Origin: Alphaproteobacteria bacterium
GTDB lineage: Bacteria > Pseudomonadota > Alphaproteobacteria > CADEGL01
Direction: 5' to 3'
Length of the DNA stretch: 52,922 nt
Assembly (NCBI GenBank): GCA_026400755.1
Contig: JAPLOM010000024.1
Span: 1-52,922 of the forward strand
The notes beneath the pieces were generated by a model. The model saw only the letters and a list, made by a program, of their open reading frames with translations, had not been told where the DNA came from and ran no database searches. Shown piece after piece: positions 15,335 through 25,680 of this stretch; within the stretch, counting starts at the first letter, position 1; the number at the start of each line of letters is the position of its first letter. The position numbers were made by a program, and so were the translations under genes.

Positions 15335-16591
15335 TTACGACTTCTTCGGATAGATCTTCACCGGGTTCGTGCCCAGCTTGAACGGCTCGTTGGCGTTCAC
15401 GAACTTGAACACCGTGAAGTTGTAGACGCCGCAGTCGCCGTTGGCGTCGCAGTTCTTCGGGCCCGTCAGGCCTTGCAGGCCCTTGGTCGCGAAGATGGCA
15501 TCGCGCCGCGCCTTCTTGCCGATATAGCTGTTGCCGTCTTTGTCCGTCTTGATGACCTTCTTGATCGCTTCCACGGCCAACAGCGCGGCGTCATAGCCGA
15601 AATGGTGGAAGCCGCCGACCGGGTCCTCGCCGTACTTGGCCTTGTACTTCGTCAGGAAGTCCGGATAGCCCTTGCCCAGCAAGTCGGGCGAGGTGTCGCC
15701 GACCGTCAGGTTGACCTTGGTGGAGGCGTCGCCCGCGAGCTTCAGGAAGTCGGGCACCAAGGCGCCTTCGGCCGAGACCAGCGTGGCCTTCTCAAGCCCT
15801 GTCACCGAGCCGGCTTGGCGCGTCACGTTCGCCGCGGCGGCTACGAAGATCGGGTAGAAGATGACGTCCGGCTTCTACGTCGCCACCTTGGTCAGCATCG
15901 GCTTCATGTCGGTGTCGTTCGGCGAGATCGCTTCCGCCGGCGTCACCTGGCCGCCCAACTGCTTGAGGTGGTCGAGGAAGACCTGGACATAGCCTTGGGC
16001 ATAGGGGCTGCCGTCATGGATGCCGACAGCCTTCTTGGCACTCAACACTTTGTAAGCCCAGTCAGCGGCGGTGGAGCCCGCCCAATTGTCGTTCCACACC
16101 ACGCGGACGAAGCCGTTATAGCTGGGGTCGCGCTTGGCGTCGGTCAGGTTGGGCGCGGTCGGCGAAACGCCGATCATCGAGATGCCGGCCTTCCACAGGA
16201 TGGGCGCCGCGGGCTTGGCCTCGCTGGAGCAGGTCGGGCCGACGACCACGACGATCTTCTGGTTGGCCGCCAGCTTGGTGGCCGCGGTCTGGCCGCCTTC
16301 CGCGTTGCACGCGCTGTCCTCGGGCACCAGCTTGATCGGATGGCTGCCGATCTTTGCGCCCACGTCCTGGATCAGGATTTCCGCGCCGCGCTGTTCGTCG
16401 ATGCCGAGCGAGGCGTCGGCGCCGGAGATGACGCCCATGAAGCCGATCTGCAGCGGCTCACCTTTGGCCAGTTTGATGACGCCCAGCTCGTCGGTGACGG
16501 GGCCCTTGGTTTCGGCCGCCAGGGCCGGCGCGGCGGACGCGGCCAGCACGGCGAATGCCGCGGCGGTCACCCGCAAGGTCATGCGTTTCAT
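15335..16591 (-). pseudogene. Branched-chain amino acid-type ABC substrate-binding protein, amber-interrupted
   Basis: One 419-codon frame with a signal peptide (ending PALAAETK) and a LivK-like type I periplasmic binding fold: GFMGVISGADASLGIDEQRG near the N-terminus, SCNAEGGQTAATKL-like middle and a final TVFKFVN segment. A single in-frame TAG at 15875-15877 stands where family members continue smoothly (KVAT, stop, KPDVIFYP); a CAG to TAG change would explain it. Both halves keep the family sequence, so the mutation is recent, or the codon is misread or suppressed, or it is a sequence error. No permease or ATPase genes are nearby. ATG 16591 follows AGGAGG. Confidence 0.85.
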
Positions 16592-19327: not shown

Positions 19328-21550
19328 GTGCGCTTCCTCCACCGCAACCTCCATTTCATCCTGCCGCTGGCTGTCCTGGCCGCCGCTGTGTTCCTGCGCG
19401 CGGACGAACCCTGGCTGGTCGAGCAGGCGCGCTTGTCGGTCTTCGACAACTATCAGCGGCTGAAGCCGCGCGTCTACGATCCCGCCTCACCCGTACGCAT
19501 CGTCGACATCGACGACGAATCCCTGGCGCGTCTGGGCCAGTGGCCCTGGCCACGTACTCTTCTGGCCGGGCTGGTCGATCGGTTGGGGGCAGCCGGTGTG
19601 GTCACGATCGCGTTCGACGCCGTCTTCGCCGAACCCGACCGTACCTCGCCGCAACGCCTGCTGGAGTTGTGGACCGACGCGGGCGCGGCGGACGCGGTGC
19701 GCGCACGCATCGCGAAACTGCCCGACAACGACCAGGTCTTTGCCGACGCGCTTGGGCGCGTGAATGCGGTGACGGGCTTCGTGCTGACGAATTCGGTGCA
19801 CGGACGCGCTCCCGAGCTGAAGGCCGGCTTCGCCTTCGCGGGCGACGATCCCGAGCCGTTCGTGCTGGCCTATACAGGTGCCGTGGTCAATTTGCCCGCG
19901 ATCGCAGCAGCCGCTGCGGGCAACGGCAGCATCACGGGTCTGCCCGACCGCGATGGGATCATCCGCCGCACGCCCTTGGTGTTCAGGCTGGACGAGAAAA
20001 TCTATCCCTCGCTGGTCGTCGAGGCGTTGCGGGTGGCGCAAGATGCCAGCACCTACATCATCAAGTCCTCGGGCGCCTCGGGCGTTTACAGCTTTGGCGA
20101 GCGCACGGGCATCAGCCAGATCAAGGTCGGCAACTTCCCGATCCCGACCGATGCTTATGGCCGCGTCTGGATTCACTACGCGGGCACCCAGGCCGCGCGC
20201 TTTGTCCCGGCGTGGCGGGTTATGCAGCCCGACTTCGATGCCAGCGAGGTCGCGGGACGCATCATCTTCATCGGCACCACGGCGGCGGGCCTTAAGGATC
20301 TGCGCACCACGCCCTTGAATCCCACCGCGGCCGGGGTCGAGGTCTTTGCCGAACTTTTGGAGCAGATCCTCGCCAAGGATTTCCTGGAACGGCCGCACTT
20401 CGCGCTGGGACTCGAGCTGGTCTATCTCGTGGCGCTCGGGCTTTTGCTCATCGTTCTGGTGCCGCGCGTGGGCGCACGCTGGTGCGCGTTCGTGGCCACC
20501 GCGGCCATCGCGAGCGCTGTCTTCGGCTCCTGGCATGCTTACACACGGTGGCATTGGTTGCTGGACCCGGTCTTTCCCTCGATGGCCGTTCTGGCCGTCT
20601 ATATCGTGCAGACCGGCATCATCTTCCTGCGCACCGAAACCGAGCGGCGCTGGGTCCGCAACGCTTTCGGACGCTACATCTCGCCCGCCGTGGTCAGCCG
20701 CCTGGCCGAGCATCCGGAGCGCCTGGCGCTGGGCGGAGAGATGCGCGAGATGACGGTGATGTTCAGCGACATCCGTGATTTCACCGCGCGCTCTGAACGG
20801 CTCGATGCGCAGGGCCTCACGCGGTTCATCAACCGCTATCTCACGCCCATGACGGAATGCGTGCTGACCAACCAGGGCACGGTCGACAAATATATCGGCG
20901 ATTGCGTGATGGCGTTCTGGAACGCGCCGCTCGACGACGCCGACCATCGCCGCCATGCCTGCCGCACGGCGCTGGCCATGCGCGCGCGGCTGGCCGGCCT
21001 GAATGAATCCTGGGCGGCGGAAGCGCAGGCAGCAGGCGAAACCTTCGACCCCATGCGCATCGGCATCGGTCTCAACACGGGCCTCTGTTGCGTGGGCAAT
21101 ATGGGTTCGGACCAACGGTTCGACTATTCGGTCCTGGGCGATGACGTGAATTTGGCCTCGCGGTTAGAAGGGCAGTCCAAAGTCTATGGAGTCGACATCA
21201 TCGCCAGTGAAGCCGCGCTGGCCGGCGTCGAGGGATTCGCTTCACTCGAAATCGACCTGATCCGGGTCAAGGGTAAGGCGCGCCCCGTGCGCATCTTCCA
21301 TCTGGCAGGCGATCAGGCCCATGCGGCGTCCGATGCGTTCATGCGCCTGTCCGCCGCCCACGGCGACATGCTGCGCGCCTATTGCGCGCGGAATTGGGAC
21401 GCCGCCGACGCGGCGCTTGCACGCTGCCGCGCCTCCGTTGCTCCGACGCTCGCGCCGCTCTATAATCTCTACGCACAGCGTATAGCCGTGTTCCGCGTGC
21501 AGCCGCCTGCTGCCGGGTGGGACGGCGTCCACGACGCAGCTGAGAAATAG
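19328..21550 (+). CDS. CHASE2-domain adenylate cyclase (membrane sensor)
   Basis: 740 residues. A membrane anchor (10-24) is followed by a periplasmic CHASE2 sensor domain (about 25-355, with VRIVDIDDESLARLGQWPWP and GRIIFIGTTAAGLKDLR), then three membrane segments (358-435) and a class III nucleotide cyclase domain (about 470-655). The cyclase keeps both metal Asp residues (D481 in FSDIRDF, D525 in KYIGD), Lys521 and Asp599 for adenine, and Asn608/Arg612 for the transition state, so it should make cAMP. GTG 19328 is the start, with AAGG upstream. It is first in a row with a TPR/barrel protein and a FecR-domain protein. Confidence 0.93.
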   Translation: MRFLHRNLHFILPLAVLAAAVFLRADEPWLVEQARLSVFDNYQRLKPRVYDPASPVRIVDIDDESLARLGQWPWPRTLLAGLVDRLGAAGVVTIAFDAVFAEPDRTSPQRLLELWTDAGAADAVRARIAKLPDNDQVFADALGRVNAVTGFVLTNSVHGRAPELKAGFAFAGDDPEPFVLAYTGAVVNLPAIAAAAAGNGSITGLPDRDGIIRRTPLVFRLDEKIYPSLVVEALRVAQDASTYIIKSSGASGVYSFGERTGISQIKVGNFPIPTDAYGRVWIHYAGTQAARFVPAWRVMQPDFDASEVAGRIIFIGTTAAGLKDLRTTPLNPTAAGVEVFAELLEQILAKDFLERPHFALGLELVYLVALGLLLIVLVPRVGARWCAFVATAAIASAVFGSWHAYTRWHWLLDPVFPSMAVLAVYIVQTGIIFLRTETERRWVRNAFGRYISPAVVSRLAEHPERLALGGEMREMTVMFSDIRDFTARSERLDAQGLTRFINRYLTPMTECVLTNQGTVDKYIGDCVMAFWNAPLDDADHRRHACRTALAMRARLAGLNESWAAEAQAAGETFDPMRIGIGLNTGLCCVGNMGSDQRFDYSVLGDDVNLASRLEGQSKVYGVDIIASEAALAGVEGFASLEIDLIRVKGKARPVRIFHLAGDQAHAASDAFMRLSAAHGDMLRAYCARNWDAADAALARCRASVAPTLAPLYNLYAQRIAVFRVQPPAAGWDGVHDAAEK

Positions 21551-21643
21551 TGGCCGGTATCCTGGCATGGCCTTGATACCCCCCTGTCGTTTGTTGGAGT
21601 TTAGGAGTGTAAAAGGCACGTCCGGTCTGGAGATCGGCGATGG

Positions 21644-23128
21644 ATGGCCAGGGGACGCACAGCCGGGATGTGCAGATATGGGAGGACGTTGAGCCTTCGC
21701 CGCGTTGGGCAAAGGTGTGCTTTGCTGTTGTTCGCCGTCATCGCCCAATGGCAATGGTCGACTTTCGTGCACGCGCAGACCTCGGGGCCGCAAAACGAGC
21801 CTGGGCGCGTGGATTTCGACACCAAGACGAAAATCGAGGCCGAAAAGACGGCCGAGCAGGCGATCGATCGCGAGCAGATCGAAGGCAAGGACGTGACCTT
21901 CGAACAGATCCTGGCCGATCCCGACAATATTGAACTCAACTATCTCTACGCCGAGACGCAGATACGGAACGGCGACGTGATTAGCGCCAGCGCCACGCTT
22001 GAGCGCATCCTGTTGATCGACCCCAACCTTCCGCGGGTGCGGCTCCTCTACGCGATCGTCCAGTACCGGCTTGAAAATCTCGCCGAGGCTCAAAAGGAGC
22101 TGGAGTCCGTTCGAGAATTGGAGATGCCCGATTCCCTGCGCCTGGAGATCGATCAGTATCTTTACCAAATCCAGCAAAAGCGAAAGCGGCTTCGGATGAG
22201 CGCGTATGTCAGCCTCGGTGGCGGCTACGACACGAACCGCAACGGCTCGCCCAGTTCCGGGCAGGTCCTCATCCTTGATACGCCTTTCGACGTCAGTGGT
22301 TCGGCCGCCCAGGGTGATGACTGGAACGTACAGGGCGTGACGCGATTCGATGCCGTGTACGATCTCGGGTTTCAGGCGCGCCATGAGTTGTTCGGATCGC
22401 TGACTGGCTATGCCCAGCAGCAAAAGCAGCTTGGTCAGTATGATATCCGCTCGGGTTCGGTGGAGTTCGGCGGAAACTATGATTTGACGCCGACCACCAT
22501 CACGCCAGTGGTCTATGACCGTCGCCTATCCCTCGCGCGTCAAAATTATTTGCACGTTACGGGCATGCGCCTGCGCGCGACCACGCAGGTCATGTCCGGA
22601 GTCGCGGGCTACGTGGAAGGCGTCGGCGAAGACCAGAAGTACCGCAATATCTCGACCGACCAATTCGGGCGGGAGCGGTCGGGGCCGCAGTGGGAGTTCG
22701 CCGTCGGCAGCGAGCTTGTCCTGAACCCCGAAATGCGCCTGAGCGTCGAGTACCGCTACCTGCTCAAGCAGGCCCGTGAGAAGTACAACGCTTATATCGA
22801 GAACGGATACTCGATCTCCCACACATGGCTTCTCGGCGGGGGGCAGTTTCTCCTCAGCACATTTTCCTATCAGCATGACGTATACGATGACCCCGATCTT
22901 CTCGTCAGCCCGACCACTGAGCGCGATCAGCTGTATCGCTTCCGGGTTACGTACGGCGTTCCGGTGAACGCGGTGATGGGAAGTGAGTCAACCACGATCG
23001 GCGCCGCCCTGTCGGGCGTCAACCTGACCGGAACGTTCGAGTATTTCCGAGAGGGCTCAAAGATCACGAACAACGCCTACACGAACAGGAAATATTCCCT
23101 GGCCTTCAGCAAACGTTGGGAGTTCTGA
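21644..23128 (+). CDS. TPR plus beta-barrel outer membrane protein (DUF560/SLAM-like)
   Basis: 494 residues. A hydrophobic signal segment (around 27-43, ending VHAQT) is followed by a TPR-like helical region (about 80-185: NYLYAETQIRNGDVISASAT, RLLYAIVQYRLENLAEAQKE) and a beta-rich C-terminal barrel ending in Phe (SLAFSKRWEF), as outer membrane barrels do. This is the layout of DUF560/SLAM-type proteins, which help bring partner proteins to the cell surface. ATG 21644 is used; ATG 21668 is possible. It lies 93 bases after the cyclase and one base before the FecR gene. Its cargo may be that neighbour (inference). Confidence 0.78.
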   Translation: MARGRTAGMCRYGRTLSLRRVGQRCALLLFAVIAQWQWSTFVHAQTSGPQNEPGRVDFDTKTKIEAEKTAEQAIDREQIEGKDVTFEQILADPDNIELNYLYAETQIRNGDVISASATLERILLIDPNLPRVRLLYAIVQYRLENLAEAQKELESVRELEMPDSLRLEIDQYLYQIQQKRKRLRMSAYVSLGGGYDTNRNGSPSSGQVLILDTPFDVSGSAAQGDDWNVQGVTRFDAVYDLGFQARHELFGSLTGYAQQQKQLGQYDIRSGSVEFGGNYDLTPTTITPVVYDRRLSLARQNYLHVTGMRLRATTQVMSGVAGYVEGVGEDQKYRNISTDQFGRERSGPQWEFAVGSELVLNPEMRLSVEYRYLLKQAREKYNAYIENGYSISHTWLLGGGQFLLSTFSYQHDVYDDPDLLVSPTTERDQLYRFRVTYGVPVNAVMGSESTTIGAALSGVNLTGTFEYFREGSKITNNAYTNRKYSLAFSKRWEF

Positions 23129-23129
23129 A

Positions 23130-24665
23130 ATGCACGATCAACGATCGGGCGTTGCGAAGCGATTAGGCAGGTTCGGGGTCTTGCGGGCGGGATTGACGCT
23201 GACCGCTCTCTGCATTGGCATCTCTCAGGCTGCGCCCATGGAACTCGCGCAGACCCAGGTCGCGACAGCGGTCAAGGCGGGCATCGCAGCCGCTGTGCGC
23301 GGGTCGGCCCAGCAGATAAGCCGCGGCGCATCCGTCGGGCGTGCCGTACAGAGTGGAGACGCCGTCTTTCTTGGCGATGAAATCAAGACCGGGCCATCCG
23401 CGGGACTTCAAATCGTTCTCATGGACGAAACCGTTTTCACCATCGGCTCCAATGCTTCGCTGGCCATCGACCAGTTCGTTTACGATCCGTCGAGCGGCAA
23501 GGGCAAGGTTGCGGCCCGGATTGTGACCGGCGCTTTCCGGTTCGTTTCGGGGCGGGTCGCACGCAACGATCCGAAAGACATGACGATCGGGCTGCCCAGC
23601 GGCACGATCGGTATCCGTGGCACGAGCGTGGAAGGAGTGACGGACGGAGTTAGGACGTTGGTCGTGCTGCGCGGACCAGGACCGGACAACAATGCCGGAG
23701 AAAGGGAGGGGCGAATCGTTGTCGGCAACGCGATGGGGGAAGTGCTGATCGCGCGGTCCGGCTTCGCAACCACTTTCACGACCTTGACGCCGCCGACCGA
23801 ACCCCAGCGCATCACGGCGGAACAACAATTGCAAATCCGCGGCGCTTTAAAGCCAAGCGTGGTCGCGCCGCCTGCATCCGGCGACAAACCCGCGTCCGGG
23901 TCCGGTCCGGCGCCGCAGGAGGCCAAAGCTCCTGCATCCGGCGACAAACCCGCGTCCGAGTCCGGTCCGGCGCCGCAGGAGGCCAAAGCTCCAAGCGGAA
24001 AAGGACAACCAGACGGTTCGAATCAGGGTGGGTCGAATCAGATTGGGCCCAAAGGAGAAGCTTTGCCTTCGGGCCTGAACGGCGTGGCCCAGCCGATCGG
24101 CCAAGGCCCTTCTTTGGTCCAGCAGTCGGGGCAGGCAAAGGCCGGTGCGCTCGGGACCTTGGCCAGTTTCGACAATGTCCAAACGATCATCAAGAGCGGC
24201 ACTCAAGCCGTGGTCCAAGCGTTCCAGGACTCCGAGATTCAGATCGACAAATTCACAACGTTCGCCCAGCTAAACACCTTGACTGGGACCGCAGAGATGA
24301 GCTTGAAAAAGCTTTACCTCGATCCCATTAAGGGAAATGGCGGTGGCATGTACGACATTTCGCTGGCTGTCAATTTCAGTGCGCGGACGATCGACGTGAA
24401 AATGGAGGGCTACTATAAACTCGGTTTGGACACGGGCACGCTGGAGTCACCAGACATCTATAGCTATGCGAACAAGAAAGGTCCCGCAGAAGGTATCATC
24501 AATTATCTTTCTCACCAGGGCGCCAAGATCGAAGTGGCTTTGGTGGCGAAGAACTTTGGCGGGCGGATCGCGGATACGATCGCACACACTGTGACGGTTT
24601 CCGACAAGAAAGGAGACAACGTCATCCAGACACGTGGAGGCCAAGGCATCATGGGCCGTCCGTAA
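23130..24665 (+). CDS. Exported FecR-domain protein
   Basis: 511 residues. A signal peptide (about 15-35) precedes a FecR domain (about 65-170: GRAVQSGDAVFLGDEIKTGP, then VTGAFRFVSGRVARN and SGTIGIRGTSVEGV). Next comes a Pro/Ala/Gly-rich linker with a 20-residue repeat duplicated in tandem, and a C-terminal domain (about 330-511) that I do not recognise. FecR domains of this kind occur in secreted or surface proteins as well as in sigma-factor regulators; there is no membrane anchor after the signal. ATG 23130, one base after the barrel stop, has GGGAG upstream. A strong terminator follows at 24692. Confidence 0.85.
   Translation: MHDQRSGVAKRLGRFGVLRAGLTLTALCIGISQAAPMELAQTQVATAVKAGIAAAVRGSAQQISRGASVGRAVQSGDAVFLGDEIKTGPSAGLQIVLMDETVFTIGSNASLAIDQFVYDPSSGKGKVAARIVTGAFRFVSGRVARNDPKDMTIGLPSGTIGIRGTSVEGVTDGVRTLVVLRGPGPDNNAGEREGRIVVGNAMGEVLIARSGFATTFTTLTPPTEPQRITAEQQLQIRGALKPSVVAPPASGDKPASGSGPAPQEAKAPASGDKPASESGPAPQEAKAPSGKGQPDGSNQGGSNQIGPKGEALPSGLNGVAQPIGQGPSLVQQSGQAKAGALGTLASFDNVQTIIKSGTQAVVQAFQDSEIQIDKFTTFAQLNTLTGTAEMSLKKLYLDPIKGNGGGMYDISLAVNFSARTIDVKMEGYYKLGLDTGTLESPDIYSYANKKGPAEGIINYLSHQGAKIEVALVAKNFGGRIADTIAHTVTVSDKKGDNVIQTRGGQGIMGRP
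23871..23990 (+). repeat. Tandem 60-bp repeat, two copies, in the FecR protein linker
   Basis: Unit 1 is 23871-23930 and unit 2 is 23931-23990. They differ at one base (G at 23899, A at 23959), which changes Gly to Glu. Each unit encodes PASGDKPAS-x-SGPAPQEAKA. The near identity points to recent duplication. Confidence 0.95.
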
Positions 24666-24691
24666 AGCTTCCACGTATACAGGCCGCGTTT

Positions 24692-24721
24692 ACCCGCCCG
24701 CATCCGCGCGGGCGGGTTTTG
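24692..24721 (+). terminator. Rho-independent terminator after the FecR gene
   Basis: ACCCGCCCGC (24692-24701) and GCGGGCGGGT (24708-24717) pair perfectly over 10 bp with a 6-base loop, followed by TTTTG. It closes the cyclase/barrel/FecR unit. Confidence 0.9.
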
Positions 24722-24740
24722 ATTCGTGTGTCTGCACGCG

Positions 24741-24771
24741 AAAAAAAGAGGCCGGACATTGTCCGGCCTCT
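24741..24771 (-). terminator. Rho-independent terminator of the crp-like gene
   Basis: AGAGGCCGGAC and GTCCGGCCTCT form an 11-bp stem with an ATT loop (24747-24771). Seven A residues at 24741-24747 give a U tract on the minus strand, so this terminates transcription from the gene at 24941. The 169 bases between (24772-24940) hold no gene that I can see. Confidence 0.85.
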
Positions 24772-24940
24772 AGCGGGGGAATGCGTCTTGGAGAGGAGGC
24801 TCTCGGGGGAGGTTCAGGCCCGCCGGTTGCCACGAACAGCCCGTGTCAGAATGCATGTTCGATAGACACACGATACGAAAGCACAGGGTTGCGCACAGTG
24901 ACGGACATCACTGATCTAACTATATGAATTTATTGAAGAA

Positions 24941-25639
24941 TTACTCGCCGCGGAAGTCTTCGACCATTTCCGCGAGCCGTTCCATGTCGTTGACGACCAG
25001 CGTGCTGCGCTCGCGCCGGATCAGACCCGAATGCTGCAATTCGCTCACCACGCGCGCCACGGTTTCGCGCGTGGTGCTGACGCGGCTGGCAATGTCGGAG
25101 TGGGTGGGGATCGGCCTGATCGAGGCGCGCTGGGAATCGTCGCCTGCGGCTTCGCGCGCCAGGCGCAGTAACTCGGCATAGACCCGGTTGTGGGCGCCCA
25201 ATGTGCTGAGATCCATGATCCGTTCGGTCGAGGCGCGGACGATATGGGCCAGGCGCTTCAAAAGCACCGTCGCCACGCGCGGATGCTTGACCACCAGATC
25301 CATGAATGGGCCCGGCGCCAGCGAGGCCACCGTCGTGCTCTCGACCGCGACCACGCTCGCCGAGCGCGGCTCGCCGTCGATGGCACCCAGCTCGCCGAAA
25401 TAGCCGCCCGCGTCGATGTCGTCGAAGCTGACTTCGCGGCCCGAGGCGGAGAAATTGACGATCCGCACGCGGCCGCGGACGACGAAGTAGATGTCGCGGG
25501 ATTCCGTATGGCGATCGAAAATCTGCTCGTCGGGCGGATAGTCGCGCCAGGCACAGGCCTTCTCGACCGCGCGAATCTCCGCCGGCGTCAGCCCCTTGAA
25601 GAGCTGGATTCCGTCCAAGGTCGGCTTTTTGTCGGCCAT
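24941..25639 (-). CDS. Crp/Fnr-family regulator with intact cAMP-binding residues
   Basis: 232 residues. The N-terminal cyclic nucleotide-binding domain has FGELGAIDGEPRSASVVAVE (residues 81-100), so Glu83, Arg92 and Ser93 match the cAMP phosphate and ribose contacts of E. coli CRP. The C-terminal winged helix is around 179-209 (THSDIASRVSTTRETVARVV). No Cys cluster for an Fe-S sensor is present, which argues against an Fnr type. It is convergent with the FecR-domain gene, 275 bases away, and not in its operon. The nearby adenylate cyclase makes cAMP sensing a reasonable inference. ATG 25639 follows a G-rich ribosome site. Confidence 0.88.
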   Translation of the reverse strand: MADKKPTLDGIQLFKGLTPAEIRAVEKACAWRDYPPDEQIFDRHTESRDIYFVVRGRVRIVNFSASGREVSFDDIDAGGYFGELGAIDGEPRSASVVAVESTTVASLAPGPFMDLVVKHPRVATVLLKRLAHIVRASTERIMDLSTLGAHNRVYAELLRLAREAAGDDSQRASIRPIPTHSDIASRVSTTRETVARVVSELQHSGLIRRERSTLVVNDMERLAEMVEDFRGE

Positions 25640-25680
25640 GTCGCCCCCCGCACCGGCGGGCATGTTACCGGCGGGGGCTA

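Follow-up and report, generated by a model that had tools for sequence, protein, structure and literature searches.

Four neighbouring genes in a 52,922-nucleotide stretch of alphaproteobacterial DNA (contig JAPLOM010000024.1, hereafter the window) raise the question whether a CHASE2-domain adenylate cyclase, an outer membrane barrel protein, an exported FecR-domain protein and a Crp-type regulator belong to one signal path, as an earlier note on this DNA had proposed. All four open reading frames were found at the coordinates given there. The forward strand carries the genes for an inner membrane class III nucleotidyl cyclase of 740 aa with a CHASE2 domain (19328-21550), for an outer membrane protein of 494 aa with TPR repeats and a 14-strand barrel (21644-23128) and for an exported, FecR-headed protein of 511 aa (23130-24665); the gap between the barrel and FecR genes is one base, in agreement with the note. 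The gene for the Crp-type regulator (240 aa, 24941-25663, reverse strand) is convergent to this trio, and two facing terminator-like hairpins lie in between, one 3' of the FecR gene (24692-24717, forward strand) and one 3' of the Crp gene (24747-24771, reverse strand), both defined by consensus match only. On the basis of this arrangement the Crp gene is assigned to a transcript separate from that of the trio, and a single operon that includes it is ruled out. The proposed four-gene path is partly supported: the trio is a recurrent block (see below), and the link to the Crp gene is weaker. The genes around the trio encode SDR, RraA-like, MaoC and EamA proteins by Pfam.

The cyclase combines a periplasmic CHASE2 sensor domain (residues 17-373, 19376-20446, forward strand; PF05226, E 3.6e-57), which was also the object of our genome search, with a catalytic domain (residues 473-652, 20744-21283, forward strand; PF00211, Guanylate_cyc, E 4e-19) related to the solved structures 3r5g and 1wc1. 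The claim that its adenine and catalytic residues are intact was borne out, with all six catalytic positions occupied: the metal-binding Asp481 and Asp525, Lys521, the transition-state residues Asn608 and Arg612, as well as Ser601, which fills the second base position and is the commonest residue there in the family (107/130 rows). Of the alphaproteobacterial genomes sampled, about half have CHASE2, and the ligand or partner of CHASE2 domains has been described as unknown (PMC5192318).

Recurrence of the trio as a block had been named as a check on its significance. We surveyed 80 CHASE2 loci, one per genome across the class, selected on their CHASE2 score and on how far they lie from the contig start, irrespective of the neighbouring genes. 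A FecR gene lies within 3 kb of CHASE2 in 39 of these loci (about 0.6 expected by chance), and a TPR barrel gene within 4 kb in 20, every one of which (20/20) also has FecR. The whole trio is thus found at 20/80 CHASE2 loci, compared with none of 40 control regions of equal length from the same genomes, in which neither FecR genes nor barrels were present. These adjacency counts and control regions rule out a chance neighbourhood of unrelated genes, a reading to which we give practically no credence. The order of the trio varies from locus to locus, with the cyclase gene first, last or divergent, and on a FastTree phylogeny of CHASE2 domains it takes 14 changes to explain where a barrel is associated, at least five of them on starred branches, indicating that the association was gained or lost repeatedly. 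The varied gene orders and the repeated changes on the tree give good support to the view that the trio functions as one block. A separate search with a barrel profile gave 20 loci, of which 16 have FecR and 10 have CHASE2; among the 20 are loci from Elusimicrobia assemblies and one from a gammaproteobacterial assembly with barrel and FecR.

The association between CHASE2 and FecR extends beyond the trio. Among 289 genomes, 126 have both domains, 12 and 11 have one alone and 140 have neither; with one genome per family the corresponding numbers are 58, 6 and 7, and 67. As both sets of counts ignore genome size, adjacency is the stronger evidence. About half of the CHASE2 loci have no adjacent FecR gene. 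Six of seven CHASE2 proteins without a cyclase domain also have a FecR neighbour, and the partner therefore goes with the sensor rather than with the output. Adjacency, co-occurrence (also with cyclase-less CHASE2 proteins) and the FecR domain inside NsrA of Sinorhizobium meliloti (see below) support the conclusion that FecR is a partner of CHASE2.

If FecR is the partner, what does the barrel contribute? The AlphaFold model of the barrel protein consists of TPR helices followed by 14 long membrane strands (mean pLDDT 82, strands mostly >90), and the C-terminal residue of the protein is Phe. In Pfam, TPR repeats score above cut-off and SlipAM at 15.9 bits, below its curated cut-off of 22. Homologous barrels of trios elsewhere (G019, G087 and G091) exceed this cut-off with 30.6, 53.4 and 40.3 bits, and a profile of the barrel family aligns to PF04575 (SlipAM) members over 374 columns that cover both TPR and barrel (hhalign probability 100, E 6.6e-39). 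From the scores of the homologues and the profile alignment it follows that the window barrel is a distant relative of the outer membrane proteins of type XI secretion, and the description of the protein as a SLAM/DUF560-like TPR/barrel protein can be retained in this sense. Like the SLAM system (DUF560, PF04575), the window pairs a TPR and 14-strand barrel protein with a neighbour that has a predicted C-terminal 8-strand barrel domain; it differs in that the barrel stays under the SlipAM cut-off, the cargo head is FecR and a CHASE2 cyclase is attached. Neither FecR nor cyclases are mentioned in two published surveys of type XI secretion.

The solved structures closest to the barrel model are BcsC, AlgE, PelB and CymA, which are TPR or export barrels, and they could be taken to mean that a polysaccharide or another small compound leaves the cell through the barrel, in the manner of BcsC, PelB or AlgE, with the FecR protein merely a periplasmic accessory. 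We regard this as improbable. No polysaccharide synthase was found among the scanned neighbours of the trio, and the profile comparison groups the barrel with the SLAM family over TPR and barrel together. Moreover, the top 50 PDB matches of the model contain no SLAM entry at all, and the ranking of BcsC, AlgE and PelB hence carries no weight against SLAM. Export or display of the FecR protein through the barrel is plausible, given the SLAM-family barrel and a FecR-protein C-terminus that resembles SLAM cargo.

The FecR protein contains a single Pfam family, FecR itself (PF04773, E 9e-9, residues 83-182, 23376-23675, forward strand). The N-terminus reads as signal-peptide-like, and beyond the FecR domain the AlphaFold model continues with a linker of low confidence and ends in an all-beta domain at the C-terminus. 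The predicted fold of residues ~49-217 matches the cell-surface-signalling domain of PupR (6ovk, Foldseek E 2.6e-5), and in a viral fold library the only significant matches were FecR proteins of phages. The window protein shares the FecR domain fold with the FecR/PupR anti-sigma regulators but has the signal-peptide-like N-terminus in place of an N-terminal anti-sigma domain, and no ECF sigma factor was found among the scanned neighbours. A role as an anti-sigma regulator was rejected on these grounds.

The C-terminal domain (residues 387-507, 24288-24650, forward strand) is predicted to have eight strands at an AlphaFold pLDDT of about 80-90, and no Pfam family matched it. Foldseek relates the model to NHBA (probability 0.99), fHbp (0.94) and TbpB (0.69), at E values of 0.02-0.08, which is suggestive of a resemblance between the predicted domain and the barrels of SLAM cargo. 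Profile alignment to TbpB-like tails gave an hhalign probability of 15%, but one of 20 shuffled controls produced a spurious 99%, and the alignment was therefore given no weight. TbpB_B_D is weakly matched by 5/27 FecR partners, and the C-terminus of the FecR partner from Shinella matches NCBIfam NF041636 ('Slam-dependent surface lipoprotein') with E 1.2e-8, below the model cut-off. Domains of this sort are characteristic of type XI cargo.

CHASE2-FecR(-TPR) cAMP sets are already known in outline, and the window trio is a new variant of them. In S. meliloti the response to a plant signal requires the outer membrane receptor NsrA together with CyaK, and cAMP acts via Clr (PMC7529298, PMC13001267). 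We found that in NsrA a FecR domain (E 2e-15) and TPR repeats precede the barrel region known from publication, and that its gene adjoins cyaK. As in the window, a CHASE2 cyclase thus lies beside FecR, TPR and outer membrane barrel modules, and cAMP has a reader of the Crp family. In NsrA, however, the three modules form a single 1200-aa chain, whereas in the window they are split over two genes and the FecR protein has a C-terminal barrel domain of its own. No homology was detected between the window barrel and the barrel of NsrA (hhalign probability 0.5%, with a single NsrA sequence). For this reason we say that the window set works like NsrA-CyaK and do not claim membership, and the reading of NsrA as a simple fusion of the window barrel with the FecR protein, which is not supported for the barrel, was kept as a module analogy.

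The closest parallel to the grouping of cyclase, FecR and Crp is the S. meliloti cyaD1 locus, with clr, cyaD1 and a FecR gene (SMc02177) side by side, followed by a sel1 gene and a phosphodiesterase gene (PMC5498481). For Campylobacterota, CHASE2 adenylate cyclases have been noted in a gene cluster that also encodes a TPR protein, a phosphodiesterase and an outer membrane protein with FecR (PMC9239204); a cAMP phosphodiesterase is absent beside the window trio, and the passages on that cluster describe no exporter or cargo relation. The Burkholderia BiofilmReg operon (PMC5192318) likewise has a FecR protein adjoining a CHASE2 sensor, in this case a histidine kinase, but its output is two-component, it has no barrel and its FecR domain is joined to LysM.

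The direction of the signal could also be the reverse of the one proposed. In such an inside-out circuit, barrel and FecR protein would be a type XI-like pair that is itself an output of cAMP: CHASE2 would sense something else, and cAMP and Crp would set the level of cargo. This is the main rival to signalling from FecR to CHASE2. Two observations speak for it, namely that barrel and cargo have the traits of partners in export and that SMc02177 is reported to be a target activated by Clr yet dispensable for perception of the plant signal (PMC5498481), although the perception assay may not report on CyaD1 itself. Conversely, the FecR-bearing NsrA acts upstream of CyaK (PMC7529298), short FecR proteins without an exporter also adjoin CHASE2, even where the CHASE2 protein does not itself produce cAMP, and matches to Crp- or Clr-type boxes in the trio promoters were no more frequent than chance. 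On balance we consider the inside-out circuit unlikely, if well worth weighing, and favour signalling from the FecR protein to CHASE2.

Exporters of a different kind occur at some CHASE2 loci. Type I secretion genes lie near 10/80 CHASE2 loci, five of which have FecR within 3 kb, and complete sets of HlyD, outer membrane efflux protein and ABC transporter were found at 8/80 CHASE2 loci compared with 0/40 controls. In two loci (L132 and L142) the operon encodes, in this order, an ABC transporter, HlyD, a CHASE2 cyclase, an outer membrane efflux protein and a FecR-headed RTX protein of 1618-1798 aa. The FecR heads of these two loci match the retention-module profile of LapA with E 8e-10 and 4e-7, below the profile cut-off, and the window FecR protein matches it weakly (E 0.0066). 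The median length of the FecR protein follows the exporter: 603 with a barrel, 1618 with type I secretion and 235 with neither (p 2e-4). What the loci have in common is, most simply, a periplasmic FecR head next to a CHASE2 sensor, and in many of them the FecR protein also has an exported tail. Text searches of the open-licence literature turned up no paper that links either CHASE2 or FecR to secretion of type I or type XI.

These loci bear on a further alternative, that the cyclase reports the traffic or stalling of cargo and not a ligand from outside, the FecR head being a retention module in the exporter whose presence is read by CHASE2. That CHASE2 cyclases form part of operons for the type I secretion of FecR-headed RTX proteins (L132 and L142) would be expected of such an export monitor, as would the LapA retention-module matches, sub-cut-off in these two loci and weak in the window. 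It is nevertheless fairly unlikely, as a response of NsrA to addition of a protein has been reported (PMC7529298) and type I secretion genes occur at ten of the 80 loci.

With regard to the reader of cAMP, the regulator encoded next to the trio (PF00027, E 2e-17, and HTH_Crp_2) retains the Glu, Arg and Ser of the cAMP pocket, as had been noted: E91, R100 and S101 are invariant across eight homologues including S. meliloti Clr. Close homologues of this Crp protein lie beside CHASE2 at about six of the 109 Crp places listed in the class (G000, G002, G003, G020, G185 and G187, with FecR in between), of which three belong to a single family, and two of the barrel-profile loci (L078 and L079) also have a close Crp homologue beside CHASE2. 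Adjacency is found in unrelated families (G020, G185, G187, L078 and L079), and that of Crp and CHASE2 is above chance but confined to a minority of loci. The source genome encodes seven class III cyclases and six cNMP-binding proteins, and the cAMP made by the cyclase therefore need not act only through the neighbouring Crp protein.

Whether the Crp gene is a bystander, i.e. a global cAMP reader or a cAMP-independent regulator outside the module, is thus close to balanced, with the chances falling just short of even. The separate convergent transcript behind facing hairpins, the small share of Crp places with a CHASE2 neighbourhood and the number of cyclase and cNMP-binding genes in the genome all point to a bystander, while the adjacency in unrelated families, the position of clr beside cyaD1 in S. 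meliloti and the retained pocket residues point the other way. That the neighbouring Crp protein reads the cAMP of the module is an inference weaker than that of the trio as a block.

Taken together, these data lead us to propose, with even confidence for and against, that the trio is a module that transmits from the outer membrane to the cytoplasm by cAMP, in which the barrel holds or handles the FecR tail, the FecR head contacts CHASE2 and Crp reads cAMP. The TPR/14-strand barrel in the outer membrane would handle or hold the predicted barrel at the C-terminus of the FecR protein, and the FecR domain would stay in the periplasm and there touch the CHASE2 sensor of the cyclase. An event at the cell surface, or the export state, may then act through the FecR head on CHASE2 to alter, probably raise, the level of cAMP, which could be read by a regulator of the Crp type, perhaps the one encoded next to the trio. 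The gene content, the catalytic and pocket residues, the fold and family of the barrel, the recurrence of the trio and the co-occurrence come from the data; we infer the contact between FecR and CHASE2, the topology of the FecR protein and the direction of the signal. If the FecR domain is to reach CHASE2, it should remain periplasmic, and the FecR head is therefore unlikely to be secreted completely.

A more general scheme, which we put forward tentatively and as somewhat less probable than its converse, is that FecR is a general periplasmic protein ligand of CHASE2, the long forms being retained heads held by an exporter (SLAM-like, type I secretion or an NsrA-type fusion), so that CHASE2 cyclases would sense surface display or contact by way of the exported protein itself and turn this into a cAMP signal. 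Its adjacency and co-occurrence across several exporter settings make FecR a specific candidate partner for CHASE2. If this is true, outer membrane export or surface contact would be linked to cAMP through proteins alone, and the NsrA-CyaK plant-signal path of Sinorhizobium would be placed in a much wider family.

Inspection of loci taken from other genomes for comparison revealed CHASE2 cyclases within or beside type I secretion genes. At two of these loci (L132:4797-17061 and L142:4819-16950) the cyclase is enclosed in a type I secretion operon that comprises ABC, HlyD, cyclase, OEP and RTX genes, with the RTX protein (1618-1798 aa) being headed by a FecR domain. Complete type I secretion genes also adjoin CHASE2 cyclases at L185:3-15212 and L205:6897-14031, stretches within which we saw no FecR gene; the former carries an RTX-like ORF of 2263 aa that is truncated by the end of the locus. 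On Shinella and Ensifer plasmids (L070:4909-17919 and L071:750-10019), NHLP bacteriocin-type export genes and a gene for a cyclic-nucleotide-binding protein lie next to the cyclase, TPR and FecR genes.

A set of cyclase or CHASE2, barrel and FecR genes is also present in assemblies labelled as Elusimicrobia (L082, L083, L085 and L088), which are distant from Alphaproteobacteria. The 3.7-Mb S. meliloti Ak57 record CP090106.1 (L076, L238) is titled pSymB and is probably mislabelled, since it holds cyaD1, clr, putA and cobU, genes that are known to lie on the chromosome. In the window, a frame break or an assembly error divides a gene for a periplasmic amino-acid-binding protein (Peripla_BP_6; 15335-16591, minus strand), leaving one ORF at 15335-15826 and another at 15875-16591.

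In genome G000, a second FecR homologue (L029, G000:C82:17754-18416) contains two in-frame TGA codons across the aligned stretch. In genome G002, the barrel gene is followed by two tandem FecR genes (L035:6225-9358; L086 is the same locus), and as the C-termini of the two encoded proteins are related to each other, the cargo-like FecR partner can be duplicated.
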